NCBI GenBank assembly: GCA_902805775.1
Contig: CADCUB010000009.1
Location: forward strand, 1 to 54,738
Source: an uncultured Frankineae bacterium
GTDB lineage: Bacteria; Actinomycetota; Actinomycetes; Mycobacteriales; SCTD01
Direction: 5' to 3'
Length of the DNA: 54,738 nucleotides
The translations under genes and the position numbers were made by a program. The notes under the pieces are model-generated. The model was not told where the DNA came from. It worked only from the letters and a program-made list of their open reading frames with translations, and did no database searches. This document shows, one piece after another, positions 22,757 to 44,143 of the stretch; positions within the stretch are counted from its first letter, which is position 1; the number at the start of each line of letters is the position of its first letter.

Positions 22757-22771
22757 CGGGGGAGGGCGGAC

Positions 22772-23410: not shown

Positions 23411-23426
23411 GCCGGACGTGCGACTG

Positions 23427-23455: not shown

Positions 23456-23467
23456 GGACCGGGCGGC

Positions 23468-24244: not shown

Positions 24245-24280
24245 CTGACCTCCTCGGGCGCCGGTCCCGGCGCTCCTGTG

Positions 24281-24301
24281 GTTACTTGGTCCGCCGTACA
24301 G
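24281..24301. promoter_or_regulatory. GTTAC-N11-TACAG element
   Basis: GTTACTTGGTCCGCCGTACAG in the SDR/MDR divergent intergenic region; recurs at 16392, 29756 and 43310. Confidence 0.4.
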
Positions 24302-24430
24302 ACGGCGGGCAGGAGTGTGACACGTGCCACCTCGTCCGGAGAAGGCCCGGCGCGACGCCCGTTCCGGGGTGGACCCGCGCCGCGGTCGCCCGCCGCTCGG
24401 TCGAGCAGAACTCGAAGGGGAGGGCGTCGG

Positions 24431-25477: not shown

Positions 25478-25509
25478 CCGTCCAGCCCGACCACCCGAGA
25501 GGACACCGC

Positions 25510-26271: not shown

Positions 26272-26307
26272 CCGGTGCCCCACGGCGTCCGGCCGGGCCC
26301 GTCCCGG

Positions 26308-27843
26308 CTACCCGCCGATCGTGCGGTCGCTGTCCCAGTAGGGCCGCCGGAGCGCGCGCTTGTCGAGCTTGCCCATGGCGTTGCGCGCCAGCCCGTCGAC
26401 CCACTCGACCGTGCGCGGGACCTTGTGGGCCGCCATCCGGCTGCGGGCCCAGGCGACCAGCTCGGCGGGCTCCGGCGGGTCGGCGGCCGGGACGACCAGG
26501 GCGTGCAGCGCCTCCCCGAGATCGGGGTGCGGCACCCCGATGACCGCGACCTCCCGGACCGCCGGGTGCTGCAGCAGCACCTGCTCGCTCTCGGCCGGGT
26601 AGAGGTTGACCCCGCCGGAGACGACGACGTCGGCCACCCGGTCGGTGATGAAGACGAACCCGTCCCGGGTCACGTAGCCCACGTCGCCGAGGGTGGCCAC
26701 CCCCGGCCGGACGTAGGCGCTGCGGGTCTTGTCCTCGTCGGCGTGGAAGCGGACCTCGCGTCCCGGCGGCGTCCGGAAGCCGAGGAGCCCGACCTGGCCG
26801 GGACCGAGCTCCTGCCCCGCGCCGTCCAGCACGACGGCCTCGAACGGCGGCACGGCCCGCCCGACCGAGCCGGGGTGGGCCAGCCACTCGTCGCTCGTGA
26901 TGCGGGTGACCGTCCCGATCTCGCTGCCGCCGTAGCTCTCCACCAGGACCGGCCCGAACCAGTCGATCATCGCGCGCTTCACGTCGGGCGGGCACGCCGC
27001 GCCGGTGTGCACGACCGAGACGAGGCTGCTCACGTCGTAGCGCCGCCGGACCGGCTCGGGCAGGGCCAGCAGGCGGCTGAAGTGGGTCGGGACCATCACC
27101 GTCGAGGTCACCCCGTGCCGGGCGATGCGGGCGAGCGCGCCTTGGGCGTCGAAGCGCCCGAGGACCACCACGGGCTGGCCCGACAGCAGGTGGCGCACCG
27201 CGGTCAGCGGACCGTTGTGCTGCAACGGCCCCGCGACGAGGTGCGGGCCGGCCGGGAACCCCGAGCGGGCGGCGAGCGCCCGGGCGTACTCCTGCGCTGT
27301 CCCGACGGTGGCCGGCAGCCAGCGGACCTCGGTGCCGCGGGCGCGGCCGGTGGTGCCGGAGGTGTAGACGAGCGGCGGGCGCGCCGGGCGCCCCGCGAGC
27401 TCGGGCAGGGGACCGCCCGAGGTGGCCCAGTCCGACCACGCGATCGCCCCCGGCGCACCCGTGCCGTGCACCACCACGGCGGCCAGCGCCGTCTCCTCCC
27501 CCGCCCGGAGGGCGGCGGACAGCCCGTACGGCCCGGTCACCACCGCGACGACGCCGGCGTCGCGGAACTGGTCGGCCATCTCGCGCGCGGTCAGCTCGCG
27601 GGACACCGCCACGGTGCCGACGCCGGTGAGGATCCCGGCGGCGTGCGCCAGGAGCGTGGCGACGGCGTTCTCGCCGACGACGGCGACCCGCTGGTCCGGA
27701 CCCGTCACCAGCTCCCGCAGGCGGGCGCCGACCCCCTCGACGGCCCGGGCGGTCCGACCCCAGGTCAGCGTCGTGACGTCGTCGACGAGCGCGACGTCGT
27801 CAGGCTGCCGGCTCGCCCGCTCGCCCAGGCCTGCGAGTGCCAC
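26308..27843 (-). CDS. AMP-binding acyl-CoA synthetase/ligase
   Basis: PLVYTSGTTGRARGTE, VESYGGSEIG, GDVGYVTRDGFVFITDRVADVVVSGGVNLYPAE, RNAMGKLDKRAL; GTG start 27843 inferred. Confidence 0.94.
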   Translation of the reverse strand: MALAGLGERASRQPDDVALVDDVTTLTWGRTARAVEGVGARLRELVTGPDQRVAVVGENAVATLLAHAAGILTGVGTVAVSRELTAREMADQFRDAGVVAVVTGPYGLSAALRAGEETALAAVVVHGTGAPGAIAWSDWATSGGPLPELAGRPARPPLVYTSGTTGRARGTEVRWLPATVGTAQEYARALAARSGFPAGPHLVAGPLQHNGPLTAVRHLLSGQPVVVLGRFDAQGALARIARHGVTSTVMVPTHFSRLLALPEPVRRRYDVSSLVSVVHTGAACPPDVKRAMIDWFGPVLVESYGGSEIGTVTRITSDEWLAHPGSVGRAVPPFEAVVLDGAGQELGPGQVGLLGFRTPPGREVRFHADEDKTRSAYVRPGVATLGDVGYVTRDGFVFITDRVADVVVSGGVNLYPAESEQVLLQHPAVREVAVIGVPHPDLGEALHALVVPAADPPEPAELVAWARSRMAAHKVPRTVEWVDGLARNAMGKLDKRALRRPYWDSDRTIGG

Positions 27844-27919
27844 GGAGCAGCTCCTCGGGCGTGACGGAGGTCTAGGGTTCGCCCGATCCTGCAGCACGGG
27901 TCAAGGAGGCAGCTGCGCC

Positions 27920-28886: not shown

Positions 28887-28901
28887 CCGCCGTCACGGCG
28901 G
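28887..28901. terminator. 15-bp palindrome at convergent LLM/ThuA gene ends, possible weak terminator
   Basis: CCGCCGT-c-ACGGCGG perfect arms, spans the ThuA stop. Confidence 0.3.
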
Positions 28902-29747
28902 CAGCGGCGTCGGTCGCCGACGGGCCCACTGCCGCGCGGGCTCGGAGCAGACCCAGGCCAGTGCGTTGGCGAGCAGCCGCCGGTAGGCGGCGAGCCCGAA
29001 CGTCGCCGCGCTGTCACCCGGCTGCAGGTAGACCAGCGGCGACCGGCCCGCCGTGGTGGCCCAGGCGAGCAGGTCGCTCGCCGGCGGGTGCGCGGTGGCG
29101 TCCGGCGCCGCCTCCCGCCCCACGAGCACGTGCTCGTAGGCCGACACGAACGCCGCCCGGTCGAGGTCGGCGTCGGTGCGCAGCAGCGGGACGACCTCGT
29201 CGACGAGGACGGGACAGCAGTAGAGCTCGTCGTCGAGCTCGAAGGCGTCCACCCCTGCCAGGACCGGGTGGTCGCCGACGGGCAGTGCGCGGTAGGTGGC
29301 CAGCCGCGTGCCGGACGACGGCCAGTCGACGCCGCGCAGGCGCCCCGGCGCGTAGTGGAACCGGCCGCCGAGCGCGGTGGCCCACCCCTCCCAGCCCGGC
29401 CAGCCCGCGAGCGCGTGGTGGACGGCCACGACGCCGACGCCTGTGTCGAGCAGTCCGGCCAGCGCCGCGCGGACCTCGGCCGGCGGCCCGACCGGCGCGG
29501 GTGGTCGCCCCCGCTCCAGGTGCAGCCCCGGCAGGTCGTGCAGCAGCAGCGCGTCCCAGGCGCCGGCGTGGGCCGGTGACAGCCAGGCCTGAGCCGCCGG
29601 CTGGACGGCGTGGGCCCAGACGGCCCCGACCTCGTCGCAGGCCGCGGCCACCATGAGCAGGAAGGCCTCGAGGTCGACGCGGTGACCACCCGTGACGGCG
29701 AGGACCCGCACACCGGCCTCCCGAGGCGACCCCGTGACGCGTGCCAC
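28893..29747 (-). CDS. ThuA domain-containing protein (1)
   Basis: VLAVTGGHRVDLEAFLLM, LLLHDLPGL, GVGVVAVHHALAGWPGWEGWATALGGRFHY. Confidence 0.75.
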   Translation of the reverse strand: MARVTGSPREAGVRVLAVTGGHRVDLEAFLLMVAAACDEVGAVWAHAVQPAAQAWLSPAHAGAWDALLLHDLPGLHLERGRPPAPVGPPAEVRAALAGLLDTGVGVVAVHHALAGWPGWEGWATALGGRFHYAPGRLRGVDWPSSGTRLATYRALPVGDHPVLAGVDAFELDDELYCCPVLVDEVVPLLRTDADLDRAAFVSAYEHVLVGREAAPDATAHPPASDLLAWATTAGRSPLVYLQPGDSAATFGLAAYRRLLANALAWVCSEPARQWARRRPTPLPP

Positions 29748-29755
29748 CGGGCCCG

Positions 29756-29776
29756 GTTACGGTAGCCGCTCTGCAC
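29756..29776. promoter_or_regulatory. GTTAC-N11-TGCAC element (variant)
   Basis: GTTACGGTAGCCGCTCTGCAC between the divergent ThuA and E1-alpha genes. Confidence 0.35.
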
Positions 29777-29809
29777 TCAGCCACTCCTGCGGCAGGAACA
29801 GGCGGTTCC

Positions 29810-30835
29810 ATGGGCAGCGCGACGGTGACCTCCGAGCACACGTCGGCGGGGGAGCGACTCGACCCGCAGGTGGTGCTCGACCTGCACCGCCGCATGGTCC
29901 GGATCCGGGTGTTCGAGACCGAGGCGGGCAGGCTGGCGGAGCAGGCTGAGCTGCCCGGCTTCCTGCACCTCTACGTCGGCCAGGAGGCGGTCGCCGCCGG
30001 GGCGATGAGCTGCCTGCGTGACGACGACCAGATCACCTCCACCCACCGCGGCCACGGCCACGCCGTCGCCAAGGGCGCGCAGTTCCGCCCGATGTACGCA
30101 GAGCTGTTCGGTCGCGTCGACGGCTACTGCTCCGGTCGCGGCGGCTCGATGCACATCAACGACCTGTCCATCGGGATGCTCGGCGCCAACGGCATCGTCG
30201 GTGCCGGCATCCCGATCGCGGTCGGTGCGGCCTTCGCGAGCAAGTACAAGGGCGAGGACACCGTCGCCGTGCCGTTCTTCGGCGACGGTGCGAGCAACAT
30301 CGGCGCCTTCCACGAGGCCGCCAACCTGGCCGCGGTGCTCCGCCTGCCGGTCGTCTTCGTCTGCGAGAACAACGGCTACGCCGAGTTCACGCCGCAGGCC
30401 GGGCACATGCTGCTCGAGGACGTGGCCGACCGCGCGGCGGCGTACGGCATGCCCGGCGAGGTGTGCGACGGCATGGACGCGCTCGCCGTCCGCGAGACGG
30501 TGCAGCGCGCGGTCGACCGGGCCCGGGCCGGTGACGGACCGTCGCTGGTCGAGGCCAAGACCTACCGCTACTACGACCACCAGGGGGTCAAGGGCCTGCG
30601 CAAGCCCTACCGCACCCAGGAGGAGATCGACGCCTGGAAGGCGCGCGACGCCATCGAGCTGATCGAGGCCCGCGCGGCCGCCGCCGGCGTCGTGAGCGAG
30701 GAGCAGTTCGAGCGGGTGTGGGCCGAGACGCGGGCCGACGCCGCCGACGCGATCGAGTTCGCCAGGGCCAGCCCGCTGCCCGACCCCGCCGACATCGCCC
30801 AGGACGTCTACACCGTCATGCAGGCACCGCAGTGA
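29810..30835 (+). CDS. 2-oxoacid (pyruvate/acetoin) dehydrogenase E1 component alpha subunit
   Basis: FLHLYVGQEAVAAG, THRGHGHAVAKG, GRGGSMHI, TPP motif GDGASNIGAFHEAANLAAVLRLPVVFVCENN. Confidence 0.93.
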   Translation: MGSATVTSEHTSAGERLDPQVVLDLHRRMVRIRVFETEAGRLAEQAELPGFLHLYVGQEAVAAGAMSCLRDDDQITSTHRGHGHAVAKGAQFRPMYAELFGRVDGYCSGRGGSMHINDLSIGMLGANGIVGAGIPIAVGAAFASKYKGEDTVAVPFFGDGASNIGAFHEAANLAAVLRLPVVFVCENNGYAEFTPQAGHMLLEDVADRAAAYGMPGEVCDGMDALAVRETVQRAVDRARAGDGPSLVEAKTYRYYDHQGVKGLRKPYRTQEEIDAWKARDAIELIEARAAAAGVVSEEQFERVWAETRADAADAIEFARASPLPDPADIAQDVYTVMQAPQ

Positions 30836-31854
30836 CCACCACCGTCGTGCCGCCGGGCGCCGCAGGCACGGGCGTCCGGGAGCTCACCTACGTCAAGGCC
30901 TTCAACGAGGGCCTCCTGCAGTGCATGCGCGAGGACAGCGACATCGTGGTCATGGGCGAGGACGTCGCCGGCTACGGCGGCGTCTTCCACATGTTCGACG
31001 GCGTCCTGGGCGAGTTCGGGCCGATGCGGGCCGTCGACACCCCCATCGCGGAGATGGGGCTGATGGGCATGGGCGTCGGTGCCGCCGCCCGTGGGCTGCG
31101 CCCCGTCGTCGACATCATGTTCATGGACTTCCTGGCCGTGTGCCTGGACCAGCTGGTCAACCAGGCCGCCAAGATGAAGTTCATGTTCGGCGGCTCGGTC
31201 CGCGTGCCGTTGACGATCACCACGGCCAGCGGCGCCGGCCTCGGCGCGGCCGCCCAGCACAGCCAGAGCCTCGAGGCGTGGCTGGCCCACGTCCCCGGCC
31301 TGAAGGTCGCGATGCCGTCGTCGGCCTACGACGCCAAGGGCCTGATGGTGTCGGCGCTGCGCGACGACAACCCCGTGGTCGTGATGCTCAACAAGCTGCT
31401 CCTCGGCGCCAAGGGCGAGGTGCCCGAGGGGCTGTACGACGTCCCGCTCGGCCGTGCGGCCACGCTGCGGACCGGCACCGACGCCACCGTCGTGGCTCTG
31501 GGCCGGATGGCGGTCGAGGCGGCGGCGGCCGCCGAGGAGCTGGCCGCGGAGGGCATCGAGGTCGAGGTCGTCGACCCCCGCACGGTGCAGCCGCTCGACA
31601 CCGAGACGATCGTGGAGTCGGTGTCGCGGACCAACCGCGTGCTCGTCGTGCACGAGGCGGTGACCTTCGGCGGCATCGGCGCCGAGATCGCCGCGCAGGT
31701 GCAGGACCTCGCCTTCGACCACCTCGACGCCCCGGTCGCGCGCCTCGGGGCGCCCTTCACGCCGGTGCCGTTCAGCCCGTCGCTGGAGAAGGCCTACGTC
31801 CCGGACCGCGCGCGCATCGCCGACGGCGTGCGCGGGCTGCTCGCCCGGGGCTGA
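30832..31854 (+). CDS. 2-oxoacid dehydrogenase E1 component beta subunit
   Basis: VMGEDVAGYGGVF, TPIAEMGLMGMGVGAAARGLRPVVDIMFMDF; GTGA overlap with E1 alpha. Confidence 0.93.
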   Translation: MTTTVVPPGAAGTGVRELTYVKAFNEGLLQCMREDSDIVVMGEDVAGYGGVFHMFDGVLGEFGPMRAVDTPIAEMGLMGMGVGAAARGLRPVVDIMFMDFLAVCLDQLVNQAAKMKFMFGGSVRVPLTITTASGAGLGAAAQHSQSLEAWLAHVPGLKVAMPSSAYDAKGLMVSALRDDNPVVVMLNKLLLGAKGEVPEGLYDVPLGRAATLRTGTDATVVALGRMAVEAAAAAEELAAEGIEVEVVDPRTVQPLDTETIVESVSRTNRVLVVHEAVTFGGIGAEIAAQVQDLAFDHLDAPVARLGAPFTPVPFSPSLEKAYVPDRARIADGVRGLLARG

Positions 31855-31856
31855 GC

Positions 31857-33194
31857 GTGGCCCGCGAGGTGCTGCTGCCCAAGCTCGGGCTGACGATGCA
31901 GGAGGGGACGATCGTCGAGTGGGTCGCGCGGCCCGGTGACACCGTCCGCGAGGGCGACGTCCTGCTGCGCATGGCCACCGACAAGGTGGACGTCGACGTG
32001 GAGGCCGAGGGGTCCGGCGTCTTCCGGCCGGTGGCGGTGGAGGGCGCCACGGTGCCTGCCGGTGCGCGGATCGCGTGGCTGCTGGCCGAGGGCGAGCCGG
32101 TGCCCGGGCAGGTCGAGGCGCCGCCCGGTGCTCCCGCAGGGGAGGCGCCCCCCGCCGCGGAGGACGTCGGCGAGCTGTCGCTCGCAGCACCGGCGGCGGC
32201 GTCCGGCAGCACCCGGCTCAGGGCGTCCCCCAACGCCCGCCGGATCGCGAGGGTGCACGGGGTCGACCTGCACGCCGTGGCGGGCACCGGCCCGGGGGGA
32301 CGCATCGTGTCGGAGGACGTCGAGGAGCTGCTGGCCCGGCCGGCGGCTCCGGCACCCCGGGCGTCCGAGCCGGGGCGCGTCGTGTCGCCGCTGGTGCGCC
32401 GTGAGGCGGCGAGCAGCGGCGTCGACGTCAGCCGGCTGGTCGGCAGCGGTGCCGGCGGCCGGGTGCGCCGCGCCGACCTCGCCGCGGCCGCACCTCCCCC
32501 GGCCACGGCCGGGGTCATCCCCCTCACCGGCATGCGCGGCGCCATCGCCCGCGCGATGCACTCCTCCCTGCAGGAGATGGCGCAGCTGACCCACGGCTAC
32601 GAGGCCGAGGTCGGCGGGCTGGTGCGGCTGCGCGAGCAGCTCAAGGCCGAGTGGGCCGGCCAGCGGGTCCCGAGCATCAACGACTTCGTCGTCAGAGCCG
32701 CCGCCCTCGCTCTGCGCGAGCACCCGCTGCTCAACGCCACCGTGCGCGACGACGCGGTCCACCTGCTGACCGACGTCCACGTCGGGGTGGCGGTCGCGGT
32801 GCCCGACGGGCTCGTGGTGCCGGTGGTGCGCGACGCCGCCGACACGCCGCTCCCCGCGCTCTCGGCGGAGACGTCGGCCCTGGCGGCAGCCGCCCGGGAG
32901 GGCCGCCTGTCCTCGCGGCAGCTCGAGGGCGCGACCTTCGTGGTGACGTCGCTCGGGCACTACGGCGTCGACTTCTTCACGCCGGTCGTCAACCCCGGCA
33001 ACGTCGCCATCCTCGGGGTGGGGCGGGTCAAGGACGGCGTCCGCTGGGAGGACGAGACCCCCGTGCGGACCTCGGTGCTCACGCTGAGCCTGTCGTTCGA
33101 CCACCGGGCCGTGGACGGGGCGCCCGCCGCCGACTTCCTGCGCACCGTGTCCGGCCTGCTCGCCACGCCGCTGCGGCTGCTGGCCGGCCCGTGA
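31857..33194 (+). CDS. Dihydrolipoamide acyltransferase E2 (one lipoyl domain, two peripheral-subunit-binding domains)
   Basis: Lipoyl MATDKVDVDVEAEGSG; PSBDs ASPNARRIARVHGVDLHAVAGTGPGGRIVSEDVEEL and SPLVRREAASSGVDVSRLVGSGAGGRVRRADL; catalytic SFDHRAVDGAPAADFL. Confidence 0.94.
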   Translation: MAREVLLPKLGLTMQEGTIVEWVARPGDTVREGDVLLRMATDKVDVDVEAEGSGVFRPVAVEGATVPAGARIAWLLAEGEPVPGQVEAPPGAPAGEAPPAAEDVGELSLAAPAAASGSTRLRASPNARRIARVHGVDLHAVAGTGPGGRIVSEDVEELLARPAAPAPRASEPGRVVSPLVRREAASSGVDVSRLVGSGAGGRVRRADLAAAAPPPATAGVIPLTGMRGAIARAMHSSLQEMAQLTHGYEAEVGGLVRLREQLKAEWAGQRVPSINDFVVRAAALALREHPLLNATVRDDAVHLLTDVHVGVAVAVPDGLVVPVVRDAADTPLPALSAETSALAAAAREGRLSSRQLEGATFVVTSLGHYGVDFFTPVVNPGNVAILGVGRVKDGVRWEDETPVRTSVLTLSLSFDHRAVDGAPAADFLRTVSGLLATPLRLLAGP

Positions 33195-33583
33195 CGACCG
33201 TGGTCGACCCGGGGCTGTTCACCTCGCTGGACCCGCCTCGTCTGGCCGGCAGCAGGTGCCGGTCCTGCGGCACGGTCACCTTCCCCGTCGGCGGCTCGTG
33301 CCCCCGGTGCACCCTGCCCGGTCCGGACACCGTCGCGCTGGCCGACGCCGGCACGGTCTGGACGTGGACCGTGCAGACCTTCCCGCCCAAGCCGCCCTAC
33401 GTACCGCCGGCGGGGGGCTTCTCGCCGTACGCGGTGGGCTACGTCGACCTCGGTGACGTCCTCGTCGAGGGCCACCTGCTGGTCGAGCCCGGGCACCTGC
33501 GCATCGGCCTGCCGGTGCGGCTCGTGCTGACCCCGGTGGGCGACGGCAGCCGGTCGACCTTCGCCTTCGAGGCGACCCCGTGA
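33191..33583 (+). CDS. Zn-ribbon/OB-fold protein (DUF35 type)
   Basis: CRSCGTVTFPVGGSCPRC followed by an OB-fold-like region; coupled to a thiolase. Confidence 0.88.
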   Translation: MTTVVDPGLFTSLDPPRLAGSRCRSCGTVTFPVGGSCPRCTLPGPDTVALADAGTVWTWTVQTFPPKPPYVPPAGGFSPYAVGYVDLGDVLVEGHLLVEPGHLRIGLPVRLVLTPVGDGSRSTFAFEATP

Positions 33584-34737
33584 CGGTCGCGATCGTCGGC
33601 GTGGGCATGACCCGCTTCGGCCGGCACGACGAGCTCTCGGGGCTGGACCTCGCGGAGCAGGCCGTCCGGGAGGCCCTGGCCGACGCGGGCACCGCCTGGT
33701 CCGACGTCGACCTCGCCGTCGGCGGCAGCAACGTCTCCGGCAAGCCCGACGCGCTGGTGTCGCGCCTGGGGCTGACCGGGCTCGCCTTCCCGACGGTGCG
33801 CAACGGCTGCGCCACCGGCGGCGTGGCCCTGGCGACGGCCGCCGACGCGATCCGCGCGGGCCGCGCGCGCACGGCCGTCGTCGTCGGCTTCGACAAGCAC
33901 GAGCGCGGCGCCTTCGCCTCCGACCCCGCCTCCTACGGGCTCGGTGCGTGGTACGGCGAGACCGGGCTCATGGTGACCACGCAGTACTTCGCGATGAAGA
34001 CCCGCCGCTACCTGCACGAGCACGGGCTCTCGGAGGAGTCGCTGGCCCGCGTCTCGGCCCGGGCGTTCCGCAACGGGGCCGCCCACCCCCGGGCCTGGCG
34101 CCGGTCGCCCCTGTCGGTCGAGCAGGTGCTGGCGGCCGCGCCGGTCAACCCGCCGCTGACGCAGTACATGCTCTGCCAGCCGTCGCAGGGCGCCGTCGCC
34201 CTGGTCGTGACCGGCGAGGAACGGGCCGCCGACCTGGCCGAGCGGCCGGTGCGGCTCGCGGCGGTCAGCGTCCGGACCCGCCGCTACGGCTCCTTCGAGG
34301 TCTTCTCACCGTCCCTGGACCCGGTCCCTCGCAGGAGCCCCAGCATCGACGCCGCCGACAGCGCCTTCCGGACGGCCGGCCTGTCGCCGTCGGAGGTGGA
34401 CGTCGCCCAGGTGCAGGACACCGACAGCGGATCGGAGCTGATCCACCTGGCCGAGACCGGCCTGTGCGCGCACGGCGAGCAGGAGAAGCTGCTGGCCGAT
34501 GGGCAGACCGACGCGGAGGGCGCTCTGCCGGTCAACACCGACGGCGGGTGCCTGGCCAACGGCGAGCCGATCGGCGCCAGCGGCCTGCGGCAGGTGCACG
34601 AGGTGGTCCGCCAGCTGCAGGGGCGCGCCCTCGGCCGCCAGGTGCCCGGTGCACCGCGGGTCGGCTTCACCCACGTCTACGGCGCACCGGGAACGTCGTC
34701 CTGCGCCGTGCTCACGCTCGAAGGAGCTCGCTCGTGA
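33580..34737 (+). CDS. Thiolase-family protein, lipid-transfer/Ltp2-like aldolase
   Basis: MTVAIVGVGMTRFGRH, NGCATGGVAL, NTDGGCLANGEPIGASGLRQ, length 385 aa next to DUF35. Confidence 0.88.
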   Translation: MTVAIVGVGMTRFGRHDELSGLDLAEQAVREALADAGTAWSDVDLAVGGSNVSGKPDALVSRLGLTGLAFPTVRNGCATGGVALATAADAIRAGRARTAVVVGFDKHERGAFASDPASYGLGAWYGETGLMVTTQYFAMKTRRYLHEHGLSEESLARVSARAFRNGAAHPRAWRRSPLSVEQVLAAAPVNPPLTQYMLCQPSQGAVALVVTGEERAADLAERPVRLAAVSVRTRRYGSFEVFSPSLDPVPRRSPSIDAADSAFRTAGLSPSEVDVAQVQDTDSGSELIHLAETGLCAHGEQEKLLADGQTDAEGALPVNTDGGCLANGEPIGASGLRQVHEVVRQLQGRALGRQVPGAPRVGFTHVYGAPGTSSCAVLTLEGARS

Positions 34738-35957
34738 CCGACGTCGACGCGTGGCGCGGACAGGTGCGCGCGTGGTTGGCCGGCACCGTGCCGCCACGCG
34801 GCCCCGAGCAGGACGCGTCCGGCGACCTCGCCGTCTTCCGCAACCTGTCCGACGACGACGAGCACGCGCTGCTCGAGGCGGTCCGCGCCTACCGCCGGGC
34901 CCGCTACGACGCGGGGTACGGCGCGCTGACCCTGCCCCTCGAGCACGGCGGCGCCGGGCTGCCCGCGTCGTACGCCATCGCCATGGCGCAGGAGGAGGCG
35001 GCCTTCGCGGTGCCGCCCTCGACCGAGCTCATCAGCGTGACGACCGGCCTGGTGGGACCTGCGGTCGCGATGTTCGGGACGCCCGGGCAGCGGGCCGAGT
35101 ACGCCGGGCCGCTGCTGCGCACCGACCTGCTCGCCTGCCAGCTGTTCAGCGAGCCGGGCGCCGGCTCCGACCTCGCGGCGCTGGCCTGCCGGGCCGTCCT
35201 GGACGGGGACGAGTGGGTGCTCGACGGGCAGAAGGTCTGGAGCTCCGGCGCCCGCTTCGCCGACCACGGCCTGCTGCTGGCCCGGACCGACCCCGACGTG
35301 CCCAAGCACAGGGGCATCACGGCCTTCCTGCTGCCGATGCGCACCCCGGGCGTCGAGGTCCGGCCGATCCGGCAGATGAGCGGCGGGGCGTCGTTCGCCG
35401 AGGTGTTCCTCACCGGGGCGCGCGTCCCGGACGGCCTGCGCATCGGCGGCGTCGGCGAGGGCTGGAGGGTCGCCACCGCGACGCTCGCCTTCGAGCGGAC
35501 GGCCTCCGGGTCCGGCACGCGCCGCAAGGGCGGGACGGTCGACGACGTCGTGCAGCTGGCCCGGTCGCTGGGCCGCACGTCGGACCCCGTGGTGCGCCAG
35601 CAGCTCGCCGACCTGCACGTGCGCAGCGTCCTCAGGGCGGCCACCGCCGAGCGGGTGGCGCGGGCGGCGGCGGCCGGCGTGTCACCCGGTCCTGCGGGGA
35701 GCGTCGGCAAGCTGCTGGCCTCCGACCTGCTGGTGCGCACGGGAGAGACCGCCGCCGACCTGCTCGGCGGCCGGATCACGGCCGACACCGGGGAGGGCTT
35801 CGCGTGGACCGAGCACCTGCTCGGCGCCCCCGGCTACCGACTGGCCGGCGGCACCGACCAGGTCCAGCGCACCGTCATCGGTGAGCGCGTGCTCGGCCTG
35901 CCGCCGGAGCCCCGCGTCGACAAGGACGTCCCCTTCAGCGCGCTCAGGCGCGGCTGA
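34734..35957 (+). CDS. Acyl-CoA dehydrogenase (canonical FAD-binding)
   Basis: LFSEPGAGSDLAALACRA, DGQKVWSSGARFADHGLLLAR, GGTDQVQRTVIGERVLG; GTG start coupled to the thiolase. Confidence 0.92.
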   Translation: MTDVDAWRGQVRAWLAGTVPPRGPEQDASGDLAVFRNLSDDDEHALLEAVRAYRRARYDAGYGALTLPLEHGGAGLPASYAIAMAQEEAAFAVPPSTELISVTTGLVGPAVAMFGTPGQRAEYAGPLLRTDLLACQLFSEPGAGSDLAALACRAVLDGDEWVLDGQKVWSSGARFADHGLLLARTDPDVPKHRGITAFLLPMRTPGVEVRPIRQMSGGASFAEVFLTGARVPDGLRIGGVGEGWRVATATLAFERTASGSGTRRKGGTVDDVVQLARSLGRTSDPVVRQQLADLHVRSVLRAATAERVARAAAAGVSPGPAGSVGKLLASDLLVRTGETAADLLGGRITADTGEGFAWTEHLLGAPGYRLAGGTDQVQRTVIGERVLGLPPEPRVDKDVPFSALRRG

Positions 35958-35978: not shown

Positions 35979-37058
35979 CTACCAGCCCAGGGCGGTGGCG
36001 ATGCGCTCCCGGTGGTAGGCGGCGCTGCCGAGCAGGACCGCGTCGGCGCGCGCCCGGCGGAAGTACAGGTGGGCGTCGTGCTCCCAGGTGAAGCCGATGC
36101 CGCCGTGCAGCTGGACCGTCTCGGCGCTGACCGTGCGGAAGGCGTCGCTGCACCACGCCTGGGCGACCGAGGCGGCCTCGTGCAGGTCACCGTGCTCGGC
36201 CGCCACCGCCCGCACCACCGCGGACCGGGCGGTCTCGACCAGCACCAGCAGGTCGGCGCAGGTGTGCTTGACCGCCTGGAAGCTGCCGACGGGCCGCCCG
36301 AACTGCGTGCGCTCCTTGACGTAGGCCACGGTCAGCTCCAGGCAGGCCGAGGCACCGCCGAGCTGCTCGGCGGCGAGGGCGACGGCGGCCACGTCGAGCG
36401 CCGGCCGCACGACGGCGTCGGCCGAGCCGCGGACGGTGAGCCGGACGGCGGGGGCGTCGGTCAGCGTGACGCGGGCCTGGGCCCGGGACAGGTCCAGGGT
36501 CGGCACCCGGACCACGTCGGCGGCTGCGGCGTCGACGAGGAACAGGTCAGGTCCCTCTGCCGTGGTCGCGGCCACGACCAGCAGCGCGGCTGCGGCGCCC
36601 TCCAGCACAGGGGCGGGCGTGCCGTCGACGGTCCACCCGTCGCCGGCGGGCGCGGCCGTCACCGCGAGGTCAGCGGGGTCCCAGACGGCGTCCCGCGTGA
36701 GCGCGACGAGCGTCGCCACCTCCCCCTCGGCCACGCGTGCGAGGGCCGCCGAGGCGCCCGCCGCGGCCAGCACCTGTCCGCAGAGGACCGTCGAGGACAG
36801 GAAGGGCACCGGCAGCAGCGCGCGTCCGAGCTCCTCGGCCACGGCCGCGACCTCGGCCAGGCCGCCGAGCCCACCCGCGTCCTCCGGCAGCCCCAGACCG
36901 GCCAGCCCCACCTGCCGCGCGAGCACGTCCCACGCGCGCTGGTCGATGCCCGGCCCGTCCTCGGCCAGCCGGCGCACCGCGCCCGGACCGCCGGCGGACG
37001 CGCAGACCCCGCGCACGGTCGCGCGCAGCGACGCGAGGAGCTCCTCGGTCTCGCTCAC
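35979..37058 (-). CDS. Acyl-CoA dehydrogenase, short divergent subunit
   Basis: KERTQFGRPVGSFQAVKHTCADLL, VQLHGGIGFTWEHDAHLYFRRA; lacks the EPGAGSD loop; GTG start 37058 overlaps the upstream stop. Confidence 0.88.
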   Translation of the reverse strand: MSETEELLASLRATVRGVCASAGGPGAVRRLAEDGPGIDQRAWDVLARQVGLAGLGLPEDAGGLGGLAEVAAVAEELGRALLPVPFLSSTVLCGQVLAAAGASAALARVAEGEVATLVALTRDAVWDPADLAVTAAPAGDGWTVDGTPAPVLEGAAAALLVVAATTAEGPDLFLVDAAAADVVRVPTLDLSRAQARVTLTDAPAVRLTVRGSADAVVRPALDVAAVALAAEQLGGASACLELTVAYVKERTQFGRPVGSFQAVKHTCADLLVLVETARSAVVRAVAAEHGDLHEAASVAQAWCSDAFRTVSAETVQLHGGIGFTWEHDAHLYFRRARADAVLLGSAAYHRERIATALGW

Positions 37059-39586
37059 AGGACCGCCTGGGCCGCGGCGAGCCGGGCGACCGGCACCCGC
37101 TGCGGTGAGCAGGAGACGTAGTCCAGGCCCAGTCCCTCGAGCCACGCCACCGACGCTGCGTCGCCCCCGTGCTCGCCGCACAGGCCGATCTTGATCTCAG
37201 GTCGCACGCGACGAGCCCGGTCGACCGCGAGGGCCATCAGCGCTCCGACGCCGTCGGCGTCGAGCTCCGCGAACGGGCTCGCGGTGAGCAGGCCACGGTC
37301 GAGGTAGCTGCGCAGCAGCCGGCTCTCGACGTCGTCGCGGGAGAAGCCGTAGGTCATCTGCGTCAGGTCGTTGGTGCCGAACGACAGGAAGTGGGCGTGC
37401 TCGGCCATCCGGTCGGCGAGCAGTGCCGCGCGCGGCGTCTCCACCATGCTGCCCAGCAGGTAGGGCACCCGCACGCCGGTCTGCGCCTCGACCCGGTCGC
37501 GGGCCAGCCGCACCTGGCCCGCTGCCACGGCGAGCTCCTCGGGCAGCGACACGAGCGGGACCATCACCTCCAGCAGCGGGCGGACGCCCTCCTCGACGAC
37601 CTGGACCCAGGCGAGGAACAGCGCCTCGGCCTGTGCGGGGTACAGCTCCTCGTCGAGCAGCGCCAGCCGCACACCGCGCACGCCGAGCATCGGGTTGACC
37701 TCGTGCAGCTCGGCGGCCCGCAGCCGCGCGGCCTCGTCCTCGTACACGGCGTCGCGCGGCAGGAACTCGTGCAGTGGCGCGTCGAGCAGCCGCACCGTGA
37801 CGGGGCGGTCGCCGACCGCGCGCAGCAGGTGCACGAAGTCCTCGTGCTGAGCGCGGCGCAGCTCCTCCAGCGCGGCCCGGTGCGCCGCCGCGTCCGGGGC
37901 CAGCAGCATGCGCTGCACCAGGGGGAGCCGCTCGCCGAGGAACTGGTGCTCGGTGCGGCACAGGCCTATCCCCTCGGCGCCGAGCCGCAGCGCGACCTCC
38001 GTCTCGCGGACGGTGTCGCTGTTGGCGCGCACCCCCATCCGGCGGGACCCGTCCGCCCAGCCGAGCAGCCGGTCGAGCTCGGCGGGTGGTTCGGCGGGCC
38101 GGATGTCGACCGCCCCGAGGTACACCGTCCCCGTGCGCCCGTCCACGGTGACGACCTCGCCCTCGCGCACCTGGAGGTCGCCGGCGCTCACCAGCCCCTG
38201 CGCGCGGTCGATCCGCAGGCTCGAGGCGCCGCAGACCGCGGGAGTGCCGGCCCCGCGGGCGACGACGGCCGCGTGCGAGGCGAGCCCGCCGTGCGCCGTC
38301 AGCACGGCCCCCGCCACGAGGATGGCAGGCACGTCACCGGGGTCGGTCTCGTCCGCGACGAGCACGGCGGGTGTGCCGTCGGCGGCGAGCGCCAGCACGC
38401 GCTGCGCCGACAGGCAGACGACCCCCTCGGCCGCGCCCGGCGAGGCGGCCAGGCCGGTCGCGAGCACCGCCTCGGACCCGGTCAGCCGCACGGAGGCGTG
38501 GAGCAGCTCCTGCACGGCCGACGGCGCCAGCGACCGCACGGCCCCGGCCCGTGTGAGGACCCCCGCATCGGCGAGGTCGACCGCCAGGCACACGGCCGCA
38601 CGGGGGGTCGGGCGCTCGACCGCCCCGGCGCTCAGCAGCGACACCCGACCGTCACGCAGCTCGAAGCCGACCTCGGCCACGCTGCCGAAGTGGTGCTCGA
38701 GCGTGGTGAGGGCCTGCTGCAGCACCTCACCGGCCGGGCCGAGCCCGCTCAGCGACTCCTCCGACCCGGCCGCGGAGGGAGCGGTGCGTCGGACACCCCG
38801 GTGGAACCGGCCGGTCGCGACGGCACGCCCGGTCTCCGGGTCACGGCTCGTCGCCAGGCCGTGCCCGGAGCGCTCCCAGTGGCCGATGCGCAACGCCTGG
38901 ACGTGCAGGGCGAGGCCGAGGTCGGGCGGGAGGCGCTGCGTCCGTCGCGCACGCGCGCCGCGGGGCGAGGCCCAGCGACGCAGCACGGCGGTGGCCGCGA
39001 GCGCCAGCTGGCCGGCAGCGTCCTCGGGCACGGGGCCGAGCCCCGAAGTCGCGCACAGCGCCAGGAGGGCCGACAGCTGGTCACGGGGCGCCGGGATGCC
39101 GGCGAGCGCGTCGTCCCGCTCGGCGGGGTCGACGCCGAGCGCGTCCTCGGCCAGCAGGCGCAGCAGCGCGCCCCAGGCCTGGTGCAGGTCGCCGTCGCGA
39201 CCGATGACGCCGACCAGCCCGTCGACGTTGCCCGGAGTGAGGCCGATCGCCACCACCTCCGGCGGCAGGCCCGCCGCGGGCAGCGGCGCGCTGGCGACGA
39301 GCCGCAGCAGCACGGGGTGCGCCGGGTCGCCGACGGTGCGCCCGGCGAGCTGGGACACCAGGTCGACGGCGGAGCGCGCGACAGCCGGGTCGGTGAGCTC
39401 CTCGGCGTGCCCGACCGGCACGGTGAGCCCGGGCACCACCGGGAGCCCCAGCGCGACCAGGCGGTCCATCTCGTCGCCGTGCACCCCGAGCGCGGCCGCG
39501 CCCAGCCCTCGGGCGCGGCCCTGTCCGTAGGGGACCAGCGGCGTGGACACGGTGGCTCGAGCGACGCCGGTGACCGGCGAGGTCAC
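37055..39586 (-). CDS. Pyruvate,phosphate dikinase-like protein with degenerate ATP-grasp region
   Basis: GGLASHAAVVARGAGTP swivel His; GIGLCRTEHQFLGERLPLVQRM, VTVRLLDAPLHEFLP, LSFGTNDLTQMTYGFSRDDV, IGLCGEHGGD PEP barrel; GTG start 39586 overlaps the upstream TGA. Confidence 0.9.
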   Translation of the reverse strand: MTSPVTGVARATVSTPLVPYGQGRARGLGAAALGVHGDEMDRLVALGLPVVPGLTVPVGHAEELTDPAVARSAVDLVSQLAGRTVGDPAHPVLLRLVASAPLPAAGLPPEVVAIGLTPGNVDGLVGVIGRDGDLHQAWGALLRLLAEDALGVDPAERDDALAGIPAPRDQLSALLALCATSGLGPVPEDAAGQLALAATAVLRRWASPRGARARRTQRLPPDLGLALHVQALRIGHWERSGHGLATSRDPETGRAVATGRFHRGVRRTAPSAAGSEESLSGLGPAGEVLQQALTTLEHHFGSVAEVGFELRDGRVSLLSAGAVERPTPRAAVCLAVDLADAGVLTRAGAVRSLAPSAVQELLHASVRLTGSEAVLATGLAASPGAAEGVVCLSAQRVLALAADGTPAVLVADETDPGDVPAILVAGAVLTAHGGLASHAAVVARGAGTPAVCGASSLRIDRAQGLVSAGDLQVREGEVVTVDGRTGTVYLGAVDIRPAEPPAELDRLLGWADGSRRMGVRANSDTVRETEVALRLGAEGIGLCRTEHQFLGERLPLVQRMLLAPDAAAHRAALEELRRAQHEDFVHLLRAVGDRPVTVRLLDAPLHEFLPRDAVYEDEAARLRAAELHEVNPMLGVRGVRLALLDEELYPAQAEALFLAWVQVVEEGVRPLLEVMVPLVSLPEELAVAAGQVRLARDRVEAQTGVRVPYLLGSMVETPRAALLADRMAEHAHFLSFGTNDLTQMTYGFSRDDVESRLLRSYLDRGLLTASPFAELDADGVGALMALAVDRARRVRPEIKIGLCGEHGGDAASVAWLEGLGLDYVSCSPQRVPVARLAAAQAVL

Positions 39587-40257
39587 GCCGACGGGGCCGC
39601 GACCAGCGCGGCCTCCAGCTCCCCGTCCTCCTCGCGGCTCATCCCGAGCATGAGCAGCAGCTCCTGGTGCAGCCACATCCAGACGGTGTGGTAGCTCGGC
39701 TCCAGCGGCGACGTCAGCATCCCGGTGTGCCCGTCGTCGAACGCCTCGAGCGCCGCCGTCAGGTCCGCCCGGTAGTGGGCCAGCGACGGTGCGGCCTCGG
39801 CCATGCGGCGCAGGACGCGTCCCACGGCCTCGTCGACGTCGTCGAGCTCGTCCCTCACGGCGGCGTCGTAGGCCGGGTCGCCGTGGTCGTTGGCGCTGCC
39901 GTCCGGGCGGCGCTGCCACGACGTGCACAGCTCACGCAGGCGGTGGTTGATCGGCAGGAAGGTCGTCATCAGCCGCCGCAGGGTCGTCTCCTGCTCACCG
40001 CCCTCCGGCAGGCGGAGCTCGTCCGCGGCGGCCGCCCGGCCCTCGGCGGTGGGCATGACCAGGGGCCCCTTGACCATCGCGAGGCCGGCGTCGACGAGCT
40101 GCCGCTGCGCCGGGCCGAGCGCCCCGCGGTGCAGACCGCGCACGGCCAGCTCCAACAGCGCGGCGCGGGCGGCGTCGTCGAGCGGGACCGCCGCGGTGGA
40201 GGCCTCCGTCATGGGGCGGGCTCCTCTCGCGCCGGCGGTCTCCGGCTGCGGGTGCAA
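39583..40257 (-). CDS. Hypothetical 224-aa protein, translationally coupled to the PPDK-like gene
   Basis: MTEASTAAVPLDDAARAALLELAVRGLHRGALGPAQRQLVDAGLAMVKGPLVMPTAEG (winged-helix-like) then helical region; GTGA overlap. Confidence 0.8.
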   Translation of the reverse strand: MHPQPETAGARGARPMTEASTAAVPLDDAARAALLELAVRGLHRGALGPAQRQLVDAGLAMVKGPLVMPTAEGRAAAADELRLPEGGEQETTLRRLMTTFLPINHRLRELCTSWQRRPDGSANDHGDPAYDAAVRDELDDVDEAVGRVLRRMAEAAPSLAHYRADLTAALEAFDDGHTGMLTSPLEPSYHTVWMWLHQELLLMLGMSREEDGELEAALVAAPSA

Positions 40258-40368: not shown

Positions 40369-41670
40369 TCAGCGGCGGGTGATCCGGACCGGGAGCGAGG
40401 TGAGGCCGCGCAGGAGGAAGCTGGGCAGGTAGCGCAGCGAGCCCGGCTCGACCACCGTCACGCTGCGCACGCAGGAGGTGAGCTCCTCGAGCGCGACCCG
40501 CGCCTCGAGGCGCGCCAGCCCGGCCCCGATGCAGGCGTGGATGCCGTGGCCGAACGACACGTGCGAGCGGATCTCCTGACGGTCGGGCCGGAAGGCGTCC
40601 GGCTGGGCGAAGACCGCCTCGTCCCGGTTGGCCGAGGAGTAGGACAGGAACAGCACCGAGCCCTCCGGCAGGGCCACCCCGCCGAGCTCCACGTCGCGGG
40701 TCACGCGGCGGAACATCCCCTGGGTCGGCGCCAGCAGCCGCAGCGTCTCCTCGACGACGAGGGGGACACCCTCGGGTGCTGCCGCCAGCCGCTCCCACGG
40801 CTCGCCCGCCGTGTGCACCACCGACTCCGCGATCAGCCGGGTCGTCGTCTCGTTCCCGGCCACGAGCAGCTCGCGCAGCAGGTTCACCAGCACGTCGTCG
40901 TCGAGCCGGTCCCCGTGGTCGGGGTCGGCCGAGGCGAGCACCGAGAGCAGGTCCTCCCGCGGCCGGTCCCGACGCTGCTCGAGCTCGACCACCATGGCCT
41001 GCTGGAAGTCGAGCATCGTCTGCTCGACGTCGAGCCACCGCGCCGGCTCGAGCCGGCCGCCCAGCGCCCCGATGGCGGCGTCGGACCAGCGGCGCACGTC
41101 GTCGCAGCGCTCCGGGCCGAGTCCGAGGATCCGCGAGATGGCTCCGACGGGCAGGGGTACGGCGAAGCGCTCGACGAGGTCGACCACCTCACCGTCCGGG
41201 AGCGCACCGGCCAGCGCCCGGGCGGTCGCGCGGACGTCGGGCTCCATGGCCCGCAGCGCCCGGGGCGTGAACGCGCGGTTGCAGAGCCGGCGGATGCGGG
41301 TGTGGTCCGGCGGGTCGTTGCTCAGCAGCGTCGGGAGCCGGGGGATGCCGCTCGCCCGCAGCCGCTCGACGTCGGCGCGCACCTCCGGCGGCGGCTCGGT
41401 GCGGTGTCCGACCAGCGAGGAGTAGGTCGAAGGATCGCGCAGCACCTCGCGGACGAGGTCCATGGTCGTGACGACCCACCACCCGCAGCCCTCGACCGGG
41501 TGCACCGGCGCGGTCCGGCGCAGGGCCGCGTAGGCCGCGTGCGGCCGCTGCTGGAACGCCTCTGCGTAGGGGTCGAGGGGCTCGGGGGCCCACCGCTCCT
41601 GCACGCCCTCGGGCGGTGACGCCGCCGCCGTCGGGGTCAGGGCGGTCAGGGGCTCAGCGGGTCCAGGCAC
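40369..41670 (-). CDS. Cytochrome P450
   Basis: LLVAGNETTTRLIAES, EETLRLLAPTQGMFRRV, heme FGHGIHACIGAGLARLEARVALEEL; start position uncertain. Confidence 0.93.
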   Translation of the reverse strand: MPGPAEPLTALTPTAAASPPEGVQERWAPEPLDPYAEAFQQRPHAAYAALRRTAPVHPVEGCGWWVVTTMDLVREVLRDPSTYSSLVGHRTEPPPEVRADVERLRASGIPRLPTLLSNDPPDHTRIRRLCNRAFTPRALRAMEPDVRATARALAGALPDGEVVDLVERFAVPLPVGAISRILGLGPERCDDVRRWSDAAIGALGGRLEPARWLDVEQTMLDFQQAMVVELEQRRDRPREDLLSVLASADPDHGDRLDDDVLVNLLRELLVAGNETTTRLIAESVVHTAGEPWERLAAAPEGVPLVVEETLRLLAPTQGMFRRVTRDVELGGVALPEGSVLFLSYSSANRDEAVFAQPDAFRPDRQEIRSHVSFGHGIHACIGAGLARLEARVALEELTSCVRSVTVVEPGSLRYLPSFLLRGLTSLPVRITRR

Positions 41671-43040
41671 CACTGGCTCAGCAGGTGGTGGAAGTGACGG
41701 ATCTTGCTCTCCTGGTAGACCGCGAAGGTCACACCTGGCTTGCGCGTGGCCCGGAGCCCCTTCTGGACGGCCTCGAGGTTGAACTCGTCCTGGTCGAAGA
41801 CCCGGGCCAGCGAGCCGAGCACCTCCGTGGCATCGCGCCAGGCGTCGTCCGGGCCCAGCGCCACGTGCTCCGCGGGGGGCGGCCGCTCGCCCGTGAACGG
41901 CGCCAGCAGGAAGCACTCCATGATGCAGCTGGTGTGGTCGTCGCCGTGCGGCCGGAAGCGGTAGACGATCTGGTTGTAGGCCCCCCAGGGGTGGAAGTTG
42001 GGGAACAGGTTGATGTAGTAGCTGTCGACCAGCTCCGCGTCCGACAGCTGCTCGGCCTCGGGCCCGACGACCTGGCGGATCTGACGCCGGGCCGCCTCCG
42101 CCAGCACGGTGCGGGCGTTCTCGCCCTCCGGCACCACGAGGATCTGCGGGTCGTCCATGCGCTGGTCGATCGAGGAGTTGAGCTTCTCCTGCTCGGTGGG
42201 CTCCCAGGACAGGTACGGCGAGGCGACGCCGCGCGGGCTGATGCCGCGGGCGACGTTGCCGAAGACGTCGTACTGCGAGTTGGCGTCGCCGAAGCCCTGG
42301 AGCAGCTGGGGGTGGGTCGTCACCACGTGGTAGCTCTCCATGAAGGCGTCCTGAGCGACCTTCCAGTTCACCCGGATCACCTTGGAGACGTGGGCCCGCG
42401 TGTAGCGACGGTCCAGCGGCCACCGCTCGAACAGCGACGGCAGGTCGCCCATGAACTCCTCGAAGGGGCCCGCGTCGGGGTCGGGGTTGACGAAGACGAA
42501 GCCGCCCCACGTCGCCACCCGGACCTCGGGCAGCCGGAACGTCTCCGGCGTGACCTGCGGGAAGTCCCACGCGCTCGGCACACGCTTGAGCCGGCCGTCG
42601 AGGTGCCAGCAGAAGCCGTGGAAGGGGCACTGCAGGTCGTCGACCCGGCCCGGCCCGTCGCGCAGCGCTCTGCCGCGGTGCAGGCAGGCGTTGACGTAGG
42701 CCCTGATCCCGCCCGCACCCGGTGCGACGCGCACCAGCAGGAAGGAGCTGTCGACGATGTCGTAGACCTCGGTGTCGCCGACCTCGGCCAGCACCTCCTC
42801 CCGGCAGGCGAACTGCCACACCCGCGACCACAGCCGGGTCTTCTCGCGCTCGTGCCACTCGCGCGACAGGTAGCGCTCGACCGGGATGTCGTCGGAGCCG
42901 AACTCGCCCGGCTCGTCGCGGCGCAGCGACGCCGGGACCGGCTTGCTGTCGGTGTCGAGGAGCTGCTGGTAGTTCGGTCCCTTGCCGCGGAAGCCGGTGC
43001 GCGGCTGCTCCGGGGCAGGGCGGACGGGCGCCTGGGTCAT
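41646..43040 (-). CDS. Rieske-type aromatic-ring-hydroxylating dioxygenase alpha subunit-like oxygenase
   Basis: Rieske CLHRG...CPFHGFCWHLDGRL; mononuclear Fe motif MESYHVVTTHPQL. Confidence 0.93.
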   Translation of the reverse strand: MTQAPVRPAPEQPRTGFRGKGPNYQQLLDTDSKPVPASLRRDEPGEFGSDDIPVERYLSREWHEREKTRLWSRVWQFACREEVLAEVGDTEVYDIVDSSFLLVRVAPGAGGIRAYVNACLHRGRALRDGPGRVDDLQCPFHGFCWHLDGRLKRVPSAWDFPQVTPETFRLPEVRVATWGGFVFVNPDPDAGPFEEFMGDLPSLFERWPLDRRYTRAHVSKVIRVNWKVAQDAFMESYHVVTTHPQLLQGFGDANSQYDVFGNVARGISPRGVASPYLSWEPTEQEKLNSSIDQRMDDPQILVVPEGENARTVLAEAARRQIRQVVGPEAEQLSDAELVDSYYINLFPNFHPWGAYNQIVYRFRPHGDDHTSCIMECFLLAPFTGERPPPAEHVALGPDDAWRDATEVLGSLARVFDQDEFNLEAVQKGLRATRKPGVTFAVYQESKIRHFHHLLSQWCLDPLSP

Positions 43041-43282
43041 GAGAACGACTCCTCGGTGTAGAAGCGCCGGCTGCGCGCGGCAGCGCCGCCGGGGTCCTTG
43101 CCGCCACTGGCGATCCAGCGGCACAGCTCCGGGTCCGCGCTGTAGACGACACCCTCGAGGTGGTAGCCGTCGCGGTCGAAGCGGCCCTGCCGACCTTCGC
43201 GGTCGGTCACGAGGACCGGCCCCCGGTCGTCGTCGGCCCACTCGTAGACCGCGCCGCTCAGTGCGTGCCTGATCTTGCGCAT
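43037..43282 (-). CDS. Small hypothetical protein coupled to the Rieske oxygenase
   Basis: MRKIRHALSGAVYEWADDDRGPVLVTDREGRQGRFDRDGYHLEGVVYSADPELCRWIASG...; SD AGGAGG; ATGA overlap with the Rieske start. Confidence 0.75.
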   Translation of the reverse strand: MRKIRHALSGAVYEWADDDRGPVLVTDREGRQGRFDRDGYHLEGVVYSADPELCRWIASGGKDPGGAAARSRRFYTEESFS

Positions 43283-43309: not shown

Positions 43310-43330
43310 GTTACCGGAGGCAGACTACAG
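43310..43330. promoter_or_regulatory. GTTAC-N11-TACAG element
   Basis: GTTACCGGAGGCAGACTACAG; shares 12-mer GTTACYGGAGGC with 16392-16403. Confidence 0.4.
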
Positions 43331-44143
43331 AAAGTCGCGGTCGTGGACCAGCCCGGTCCCGAGTCCCCAGGCCAGCCCCCTGCGGACCACCTCGAGGAAG
43401 GCAGCGGACTGCCACGGTCCACGCTCGACCGAGCACTCCGCCATCAGGGGCTGCATGTCCCAGCGTCCCCGGGCATGGCCCAGGGTCAGGTACAGCACCT
43501 CGCCCTCGCCTCGTCGACGCAGGTACAGCAGCGGTCGGCGCACCGACTCGTCGTCGACGGCCGCCGGCACCTTGCGCATCGTGCGGCTCGAGACGGTCGT
43601 CTCCAGCAGCACCTCGACGTCGGTCGTGAACGCGCAGCAGTAGGCCTCGTCGGTCACCTCGAAGTCGGCGAGGTCGGCGACCAGCGGGTGACGCGGCTCG
43701 CTGACCCGGACGGTGAACGGCTGGACTGTCGGGTGGGCGAGGAAGCGCGAGCCGAGCAGCCCGGTGAAGCGGGGCCGCAGGTCGGGTGTGAGGTAACGGC
43801 CGGGGATCACGACGCCGCTCCCACCGGTGACCGGTCCGCCCTCGGTGTCGAAGTCGATGAAGGCGTTGGTGCCGTGCAGGGCGAACCACCGGCCGCCGCG
43901 GTCGAGGAACGCCGCCAGCGCCTCGTCCTGCTCGTCGGTCGTGCGGACGTCGCAGGTGTAGCTGACCAGGAGCTGCGCGCCGGCCAGCGTGGCGAGGTCG
44001 GCGAAGTCGGAGGCGACGTGCACGTACGCGTCGTCGCGCTCGGCGAGCAGCGTCAGCAGGTCCAGGCGGACGCGGTTGACGTCGTGGAAGCGGCCACCCA
44101 CGACGAGCAGGACGTCGCGGCGGTCACTCGCAGCCTCGGGCAT
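43325..44143 (-). CDS. ThuA domain-containing protein (2)
   Basis: LLVSYTCDVRTTDEQDEALAAFLDRGGRWFALHGTNAF, PLLYLRRRGEGEVLYLTLGHARG. Confidence 0.82.
   Translation of the reverse strand: MPEAASDRRDVLLVVGGRFHDVNRVRLDLLTLLAERDDAYVHVASDFADLATLAGAQLLVSYTCDVRTTDEQDEALAAFLDRGGRWFALHGTNAFIDFDTEGGPVTGGSGVVIPGRYLTPDLRPRFTGLLGSRFLAHPTVQPFTVRVSEPRHPLVADLADFEVTDEAYCCAFTTDVEVLLETTVSSRTMRKVPAAVDDESVRRPLLYLRRRGEGEVLYLTLGHARGRWDMQPLMAECSVERGPWQSAAFLEVVRRGLAWGLGTGLVHDRDFL

Follow-up and report, generated by a model that had tools for sequence, protein, structure and literature searches.

A PPDK-derived, putatively PEP-charged histidine kinase with a dead ATP site and a conserved partner protein in an acyl-CoA catabolic cluster

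Where does the phosphoryl group go in a PPDK-like enzyme that appears to have kept its PEP site and lost its ATP site? This question is raised by a gene in a 54,738-nucleotide contig of an uncultured Frankineae bacterium, the whole of which is called the window here. The gene (37055-39586, minus strand, as are its domains) starts with GTG and encodes a PPDK-derived, PEP-type histidine kinase of 843 aa. Its ATP-grasp domain (residues 20-330, 38597-39529), in which the nucleotide-site residues are replaced, is followed by a swivel phosphohistidine domain (residues 373-490, 38117-38470) carrying His438 in GGLASHAAVVARG and by a PEP/pyruvate barrel (residues 505-843, 37058-38074) with intact catalytic motifs. 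A sequence-only reading of the window had proposed that PEP charges the swivel histidine and that the phosphoryl group is then delivered to something other than AMP and Pi.

Homology to PPDK extends over the full length of the kinase, of which residues 19-842 match maize PPDK (1vbg) in a phmmer search with an E-value of 2.9e-151. A Pfam search matched PEP-utilizers and PEP-utilizers_C in the protein and did not find PPDK_N. Membership in a curated family is not supported by score, as the kinase stays below the cut-off for PPDK (TIGR01828; 656 bits, cut-off 843), for VadK (PRK05878; 149 bits, cut-off 456) and for PTS Enzyme I (TIGR01417; 114 bits, cut-off 342). The AlphaFold2 model, one of the checks suggested with the sequence-only reading, has a mean pLDDT of 88.6 and reaches TM values of 0.75 to 1vbg and 0.81 to 5jvj, and its top full-length PDB matches are PPDKs only. 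As judged from this model, the PPDK fold is retained in the kinase despite the loss of the ATP-site motifs.

The extent of this loss becomes apparent from an alignment of 30 full-length subfamily sequences (the window protein and 29 relatives, from Streptomyces, Lentzea, Actinomadura, Dietzia and other hosts) with 67 ordinary PPDKs. While the ordinary PPDKs keep the ATP site, the motifs GGKGANL, SVRSGA, QGEDVVAG, DIEF and LQTR are replaced across the subfamily. Residues K22, R92, D321, E323, Q335 and R337 (C. symbiosum numbering), the established ATP-site residues of PPDK, are all exchanged in the window kinase, namely for H36, V97, E305, G307, S319 and G321, and the segment QGEDVVA reads VRRTAPSA. 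In the ordinary PPDKs, K22 and Q335 are invariant (67 of 67 each) and R337 is found in 65 of 67. The exchange of D321 is conservative in the window kinase, and many subfamily members carry serine or alanine at this position; R92 is replaced by serine or valine in most members and still present in two divergent ones (L050 and L191). A literature search by residue names found no papers on the PPDK active site; K22 and R337 are nevertheless recognised active-site residues, since structures of the PPDK mutants K22A and R337A have been solved. The loss of the nucleotide-binding Lys, Arg and Gln-x-Arg from a still alignable N-terminal half, initially read from a single protein, is hence seen across the 30 sequences, apart from the arginine kept in the two divergent members.

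His438 of the swivel domain and the motifs CRTEH, RLLDAPLHE, MVETPRAA, FGTNDLTQ and CGEHGG are conserved in all 30 subfamily sequences, in agreement with the PPDK hallmarks previously ascribed to the C-terminal half. As far as can be judged from these motifs, PEP charging of the kinase is well supported, and it is highly probable that the enzyme is charged by PEP and blind to ATP. With a dead ATP site it would not make ATP, and a destination of the phosphoryl group other than AMP and Pi would fit the comparative evidence well. Purifying selection acts on the N-domain (median omega 0.21, compared to 0.165 for the remainder of the protein; 60 pairs), and the domain possesses invariant residues specific to the subfamily at positions where PPDK differs (H36, R130, R204, H228, R267, E309 and R311), so that it looks repurposed and not decaying. 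Window-type kinases form a single clade with 100% SH-aLRT in a tree of the N and His domains, which was obtained by a quick search and contains long branches. No relative above 60% identity was found on plasmids. In two draft genomes, the gene of a PEP-type kinase is split over two frames (L057:5824-8719, Frankia; L061:5698-8534, S. tuirus), reflecting either a pseudogene or a sequencing error.

Upstream of the kinase lies the gene for p224 (39583-40212, minus strand), a protein with a winged-helix-like N part and a conserved helical C part, which comprises 209 aa when started from the ATG at 40212 and 224 aa when started from the TTG at 40257. The ATG, which is preceded by GAGAGGAG, is the more likely start. 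The earlier description as a 224-aa partner of unknown family thus holds for the family, for which no Pfam or NCBIfam model exists, and less well for the length. By sequence, p224 has no relative in Pfam, NCBIfam or the PDB; a Pfam match to RecC_C (E 0.05) was discarded as a chance hit. The structural model of p224 is confident (pLDDT 92.7), and Foldseek returned no PDB match for it below an E-value of 0.001 and only weak hints of PadR/VanR. We considered p224 as a transcription factor and rejected this candidate, given the neutral to acidic character of the winged-helix part, an alignment in which the window subfamily is about 12 residues short of the usual helix-turn-helix, and the Foldseek result. 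The C part harbors the invariant residues N89, W99, Q100, N108, H110, D112, H175, W178 and H182.

At all 30 PEP-type kinase loci, p224 is located upstream and an acyl-CoA dehydrogenase downstream of the kinase, whereas p224 occurs at none of the 67 ordinary PPDK loci (about half of which are at least 8 kb long). In the window the kinase overlaps both neighbours by 4 bases, with GTGA at the junction to the IpdE2/PimD-small-like dehydrogenase (35979-37058, minus strand), and such overlaps at both junctions recur in nearly all orthologs. The genome search proposed with the sequence-only reading therefore turned the overlaps and the pairing that it had noted at one locus into conserved features of the subfamily. 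There is little doubt in our assessment that p224 is a working subunit. In another genome of the same genus (G004), an ordinary PPDK (L118:3785-6562, 39% identity) lies on the opposite strand and divergently adjoins a complete p224/PEP-kinase operon; it is the one ordinary PPDK seen next to p224.

Beyond these loci, a p224-family profile matches 80 of 399 genomes of the order and 32 of 397 genomes across the phylum. Of the 65 p224 loci examined in the order, 49 have a swivel-His or ATP-grasp partner next to p224 or fused to it, and the other 16 are without an adjacent swivel partner. The same is true of most loci examined outside the class, and elsewhere in the phylum p224 often stands alone. 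The PPDK-class partners of p224 are of three sorts, none of which has both donor sites live: window-type kinases with a dead ATP and an intact PEP site, VadK-type proteins with a live ATP site and no PEP domain (29 proteins, including three N-His-p224 fusions, L205, L215 and L221), and three proteins of full length in which the ATP site is live and the PEP barrel dead (L202, L213 and L249). In the fusions, p224 takes the C-terminal place that is held in PPDK by the PEP/pyruvate domain. All but one of the VadK-type proteins group with the dead-PEP type and apart from ordinary PPDK in the tree of N and His domains, with the same reservation as to quick search and long branches. Among the looser partners of p224 there are also compact proteins made up of ATP-grasp and swivel.

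Two further observations concern related PPDK lines. The kinases that are paired with p224 and have lost the catalytic motifs of the PEP barrel (L202:6594-9122, L213:3826-6309 and L249:6624-9176) are preceded by an additional, small swivel-like protein as well as by a conserved protein of about 480 aa without a Pfam match. In Acidimicrobiales, a PPDK gene between glyS and dnaG encodes a protein of about 500-670 aa in which the ATP-grasp is mostly or wholly gone and the swivel and PEP domains are left; this line occurs without p224 and is represented by L094, L096, L099, L100, L102 and L112 (whole ORF) as well as L087 and L101.

The VadK type links p224 to a characterized protein. VadK (Rv1127c) of M. 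tuberculosis uses ATP to phosphorylate itself on His422, and Rv1126c is its operonic partner, co-expression of which improves the solubility of VadK and from which VadK was separated using 2 M NaCl (PMC13400623). PrpC and PrpD were recovered with VadK in pull-downs, growth on propionate requires the binding sites of VadK, and the protein has been interpreted as a regulator of methylcitrate-cycle enzymes; mycobacteria with a full-length PPDK without kinase motifs are mentioned in the same study and not pursued (PMC13400623). In genomes with PE proteins (Mycobacterium-like), the gene that immediately follows VadK encodes a p224 relative according to our profile search. This is the position of Rv1126c, and on the basis of this position Rv1126c appears to belong to the p224 family. 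The p224 family also serves ATP-charged PPDK relatives lacking the PEP domain, either beside them or fused to them, as apparently exemplified by VadK/Rv1126c. In two genomes (G001 and G189), an ATP-type kinase/p224 pair sits together with genes for biotin carboxylase, carboxyltransferase and thiolase. Near one of the fused VadK-p224 genes, in a Mycobacterium-like genome, we observed a protein with an acceptor region and a swivel C-terminus (L221:984-3356).

In the window, the kinase operon is embedded in an acyl-CoA catabolic cluster. A plus-strand series of genes encodes the 2-oxoacid dehydrogenase subunits E1 alpha (29741-30835), E1 beta (30832-31854) and E2 (31899-33194; the starts of the latter two are approximate), a ChsH2-like zinc ribbon and OB-fold protein (33191-33583), an SCP2-thiolase or lipid-transfer-protein-like enzyme (33580-34737) and a PimC-large-like acyl-CoA dehydrogenase (34734-35957). 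On the minus strand, a FadD-like acyl-CoA synthetase (26308-27897), a ThuA-domain protein (28893-29747), the alpha subunit of a Rieske ring-hydroxylating oxygenase (41646-43241, approximate start) and a second ThuA-like protein (43325-44143) are conserved in the cluster. The stretch 22640-26300, between a TetR-like gene and FadD, holds no confidently assigned gene. With the dehydrogenase present downstream of all 30 kinases and the cluster conserved, the acyl-CoA context proposed from the window alone is upheld. A literature search on Streptomyces catabolism found nothing matching this cluster.

A third component emerged about 19 kb from the kinase. The protein p571 (16483-18198, plus strand) combines a rifampin-phosphotransferase-like acceptor region with a C-terminal, HpeH-like swivel His and has no ATP-grasp. 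It matches RPH/PigC-type models over its acceptor and His parts and thereby has the make-up of an acceptor and swivel subunit of the HpeHI type; its swivel His is conserved in 32 of 32 aligned homologs. Homologs of p571 (39-70% identity) are present in all 24 distinct PEP-type genomes tested, and in 22 of these the coordinates place p571 and the kinase no more than about 20 kb apart. Nine of the 22 were checked on the contig, where p571 is found among FadD, ThuA-like proteins, 2-oxoacid dehydrogenase E1/E2, a ChsH2-like protein, SCP2-thiolase, acyl-CoA dehydrogenases, Rieske oxygenase and SDRs. Within the order, p571 occurs in 7 of 399 genomes, comprising all five PEP-type genomes and two (G183 and G247) with an ATP-type p224 partner; these co-occurrence counts ignore phylogeny, and the genomes span several families. 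In G183 the ATP-type partner shares a cluster with p571. In G247 the ATP-type kinase is split; its His half directly adjoins p571, and the other half lies next to p224. The same transposase gene is found at both breaks (L325:8739-9329 and L326:8404-10038), about 245 kb separate the kinase halves, and the split apparently results from an IS-mediated rearrangement. Since G183 and G247 carry an ATP-type partner, the donor type can change while p224 and p571 stay. In general p224 is not tied to p571, because, of roughly 40 ATP-type p224 loci, only about 5 have an HpeH-like gene in the vicinity.

Phenolic compounds are the substrates of the related two-part kinases HpeHI, CreHI and PpsAB, in which phosphorylation proceeds via an HpeH-like subunit (PMC12167813). 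We considered an ATP-grasp supplied to p571 in trans, and none was found by a search for PPDK_N (PF01326), which can miss divergent ATP-grasp proteins, in either the genome of the window (G000, 92% complete) or a second genome with p571 (G163, 100% complete). For the phosphoryl group of the kinase, p571 is the likelier route to a metabolite. We propose that PEP bound in the C-terminal barrel would phosphorylate His438 and that, with the ATP site dead, the phosphoryl group would be handed on with p224 instead of being used for making ATP. The full chain would run from PEP to His438, via p224 to the His of p571 and on to a substrate, with a catabolic substrate reached via p571 as the most likely final acceptor; the system would then be a PEP-driven, split, three-protein small-molecule kinase within the conserved acyl-CoA catabolic cluster. 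The direction of phosphate flow, the role of p224, the transfer to p571 and the substrate are what we infer here. Overall, we regard this PEP-driven small-molecule kinase of kinase, p224 and p571 as the best explanation, with a probability slightly better than even. The step in which phosphate reaches a small molecule through p571, suggested by linkage, the missing ATP-grasp and the analogy to HpeHI, is given the same narrow preference. Since p571 carries its own swivel, a relay from swivel to swivel must be assumed, and we know of no described member with such a relay. The linkage of kinase and p571 could also reflect only a shared pathway. The broader proposal, a PEP phosphorelay beside the PTS that runs from the kinase via p224 and the swivel His of p571 to a catabolic substrate and in which related clusters swap in an ATP-charged kinase and keep p224 and p571, is tentative and somewhat less probable than its opposite.

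The main rival is a regulatory PEP sensor, in which the kinase would phosphorylate itself with PEP and, jointly with p224, act on cluster enzymes such as the acyl-CoA dehydrogenase by modifying or binding them, with p571 being an independent pathway enzyme. The precedent of VadK, with its pull-down of PrpC and PrpD and binding sites essential for growth on propionate (PMC13400623), speaks for this explanation, and by analogy the reading of VadK as a methylcitrate-cycle regulator would favour a regulatory role over a metabolite relay. An acceptor-type protein is missing from the surroundings of many ATP-type p224 loci, and the GTGA overlap couples the kinase to the dehydrogenase. However, the occurrence of p571 in the order follows that of the kinase almost without exception, and the two genomes searched yielded no ATP-grasp donor for p571, so that we judge a regulatory sensor unlikely, though worth serious attention. 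Alternatively, p224 itself might bind a small-molecule acceptor; kinase and p224 would then suffice as a PEP-dependent metabolite kinase, and p571 would have its role at another point of the pathway. This would agree with the place of p224 in the fusions, with the nine invariant residues of its C part and with the carboxylase and thiolase genes around the ATP-type pair in G001 and G189, but it leaves the missing donor of p571 and its co-occurrence with the kinase unexplained and is therefore considered improbable. An ordinary PPDK whose divergent N-domain binds the nucleotide in another way is in line with the preserved fold of the model and with purifying selection on this domain; as the nucleotide-contact motifs, including the recognised residues K22 and R337, are replaced in 30 sequences and new invariant residues have appeared there, we rate it very improbable. 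A non-functional relic, as the lost ATP site and the two split genes might suggest, is hardly credible for a protein that is conserved in 30 genomes with an omega of about 0.2, whose PEP site is intact and whose gene overlaps its neighbours in the manner of translational coupling.

PPDK, Enzyme I, VadK and RPH/HpeHI form one superfamily based on the swivel histidine. The component parts of the PEP-driven kinase proposed here belong to this known superfamily, and a PEP-charged, ATP-dead, p224-paired branch of PPDK was not found in the literature searched. Compared to PPDK itself (TIGR01828; maize 1vbg), the window kinase is likewise a full-length homolog with intact swivel His and PEP barrel, but its subfamily differs in the dead ATP site, the score below the family cut-off and the pairing with p224. 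PTS Enzyme I is also a PEP-charged swivel-His protein that passes phosphate to another protein; the window kinase, however, scores far below its cut-off and retains the PPDK N-domain, and its partner p224 could not be related to any known family. The passage of phosphate from PEP to a compound under breakdown would resemble the PTS, which serves another end, the uptake of sugars. The subfamily points to a kinase beyond the PTS that would phosphorylate metabolites with PEP. With HpeHI, CreHI and PpsAB the system shares an HpeH-like protein with acceptor region and swivel, namely p571, and the setting in a catabolic cluster, but those kinases use a free ATP-grasp subunit, and here the PEP-type kinase and p224 would replace HpeI. 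RPH, whose C-terminal acceptor and His parts are matched by p571, has its own ATP-grasp in one chain, which p571 lacks. Through p224, the comparison delineates a partner family that neither Pfam nor NCBIfam covers with a model and that apparently includes the gene beside the tuberculosis virulence kinase VadK, and as the p224-paired PPDK relatives keep one donor site each, they represent a natural experiment on the rewiring of a phosphohistidine domain. VadK (Rv1127c, PRK05878) is, like the window kinase, derived from PPDK, carries a swivel His and has a partner gene that apparently belongs to the p224 family, but it keeps the ATP-grasp and has no PEP domain, while the window kinase is the reverse; the window subfamily, putatively PEP-charged and ATP-dead, would be the missing mirror image of VadK.
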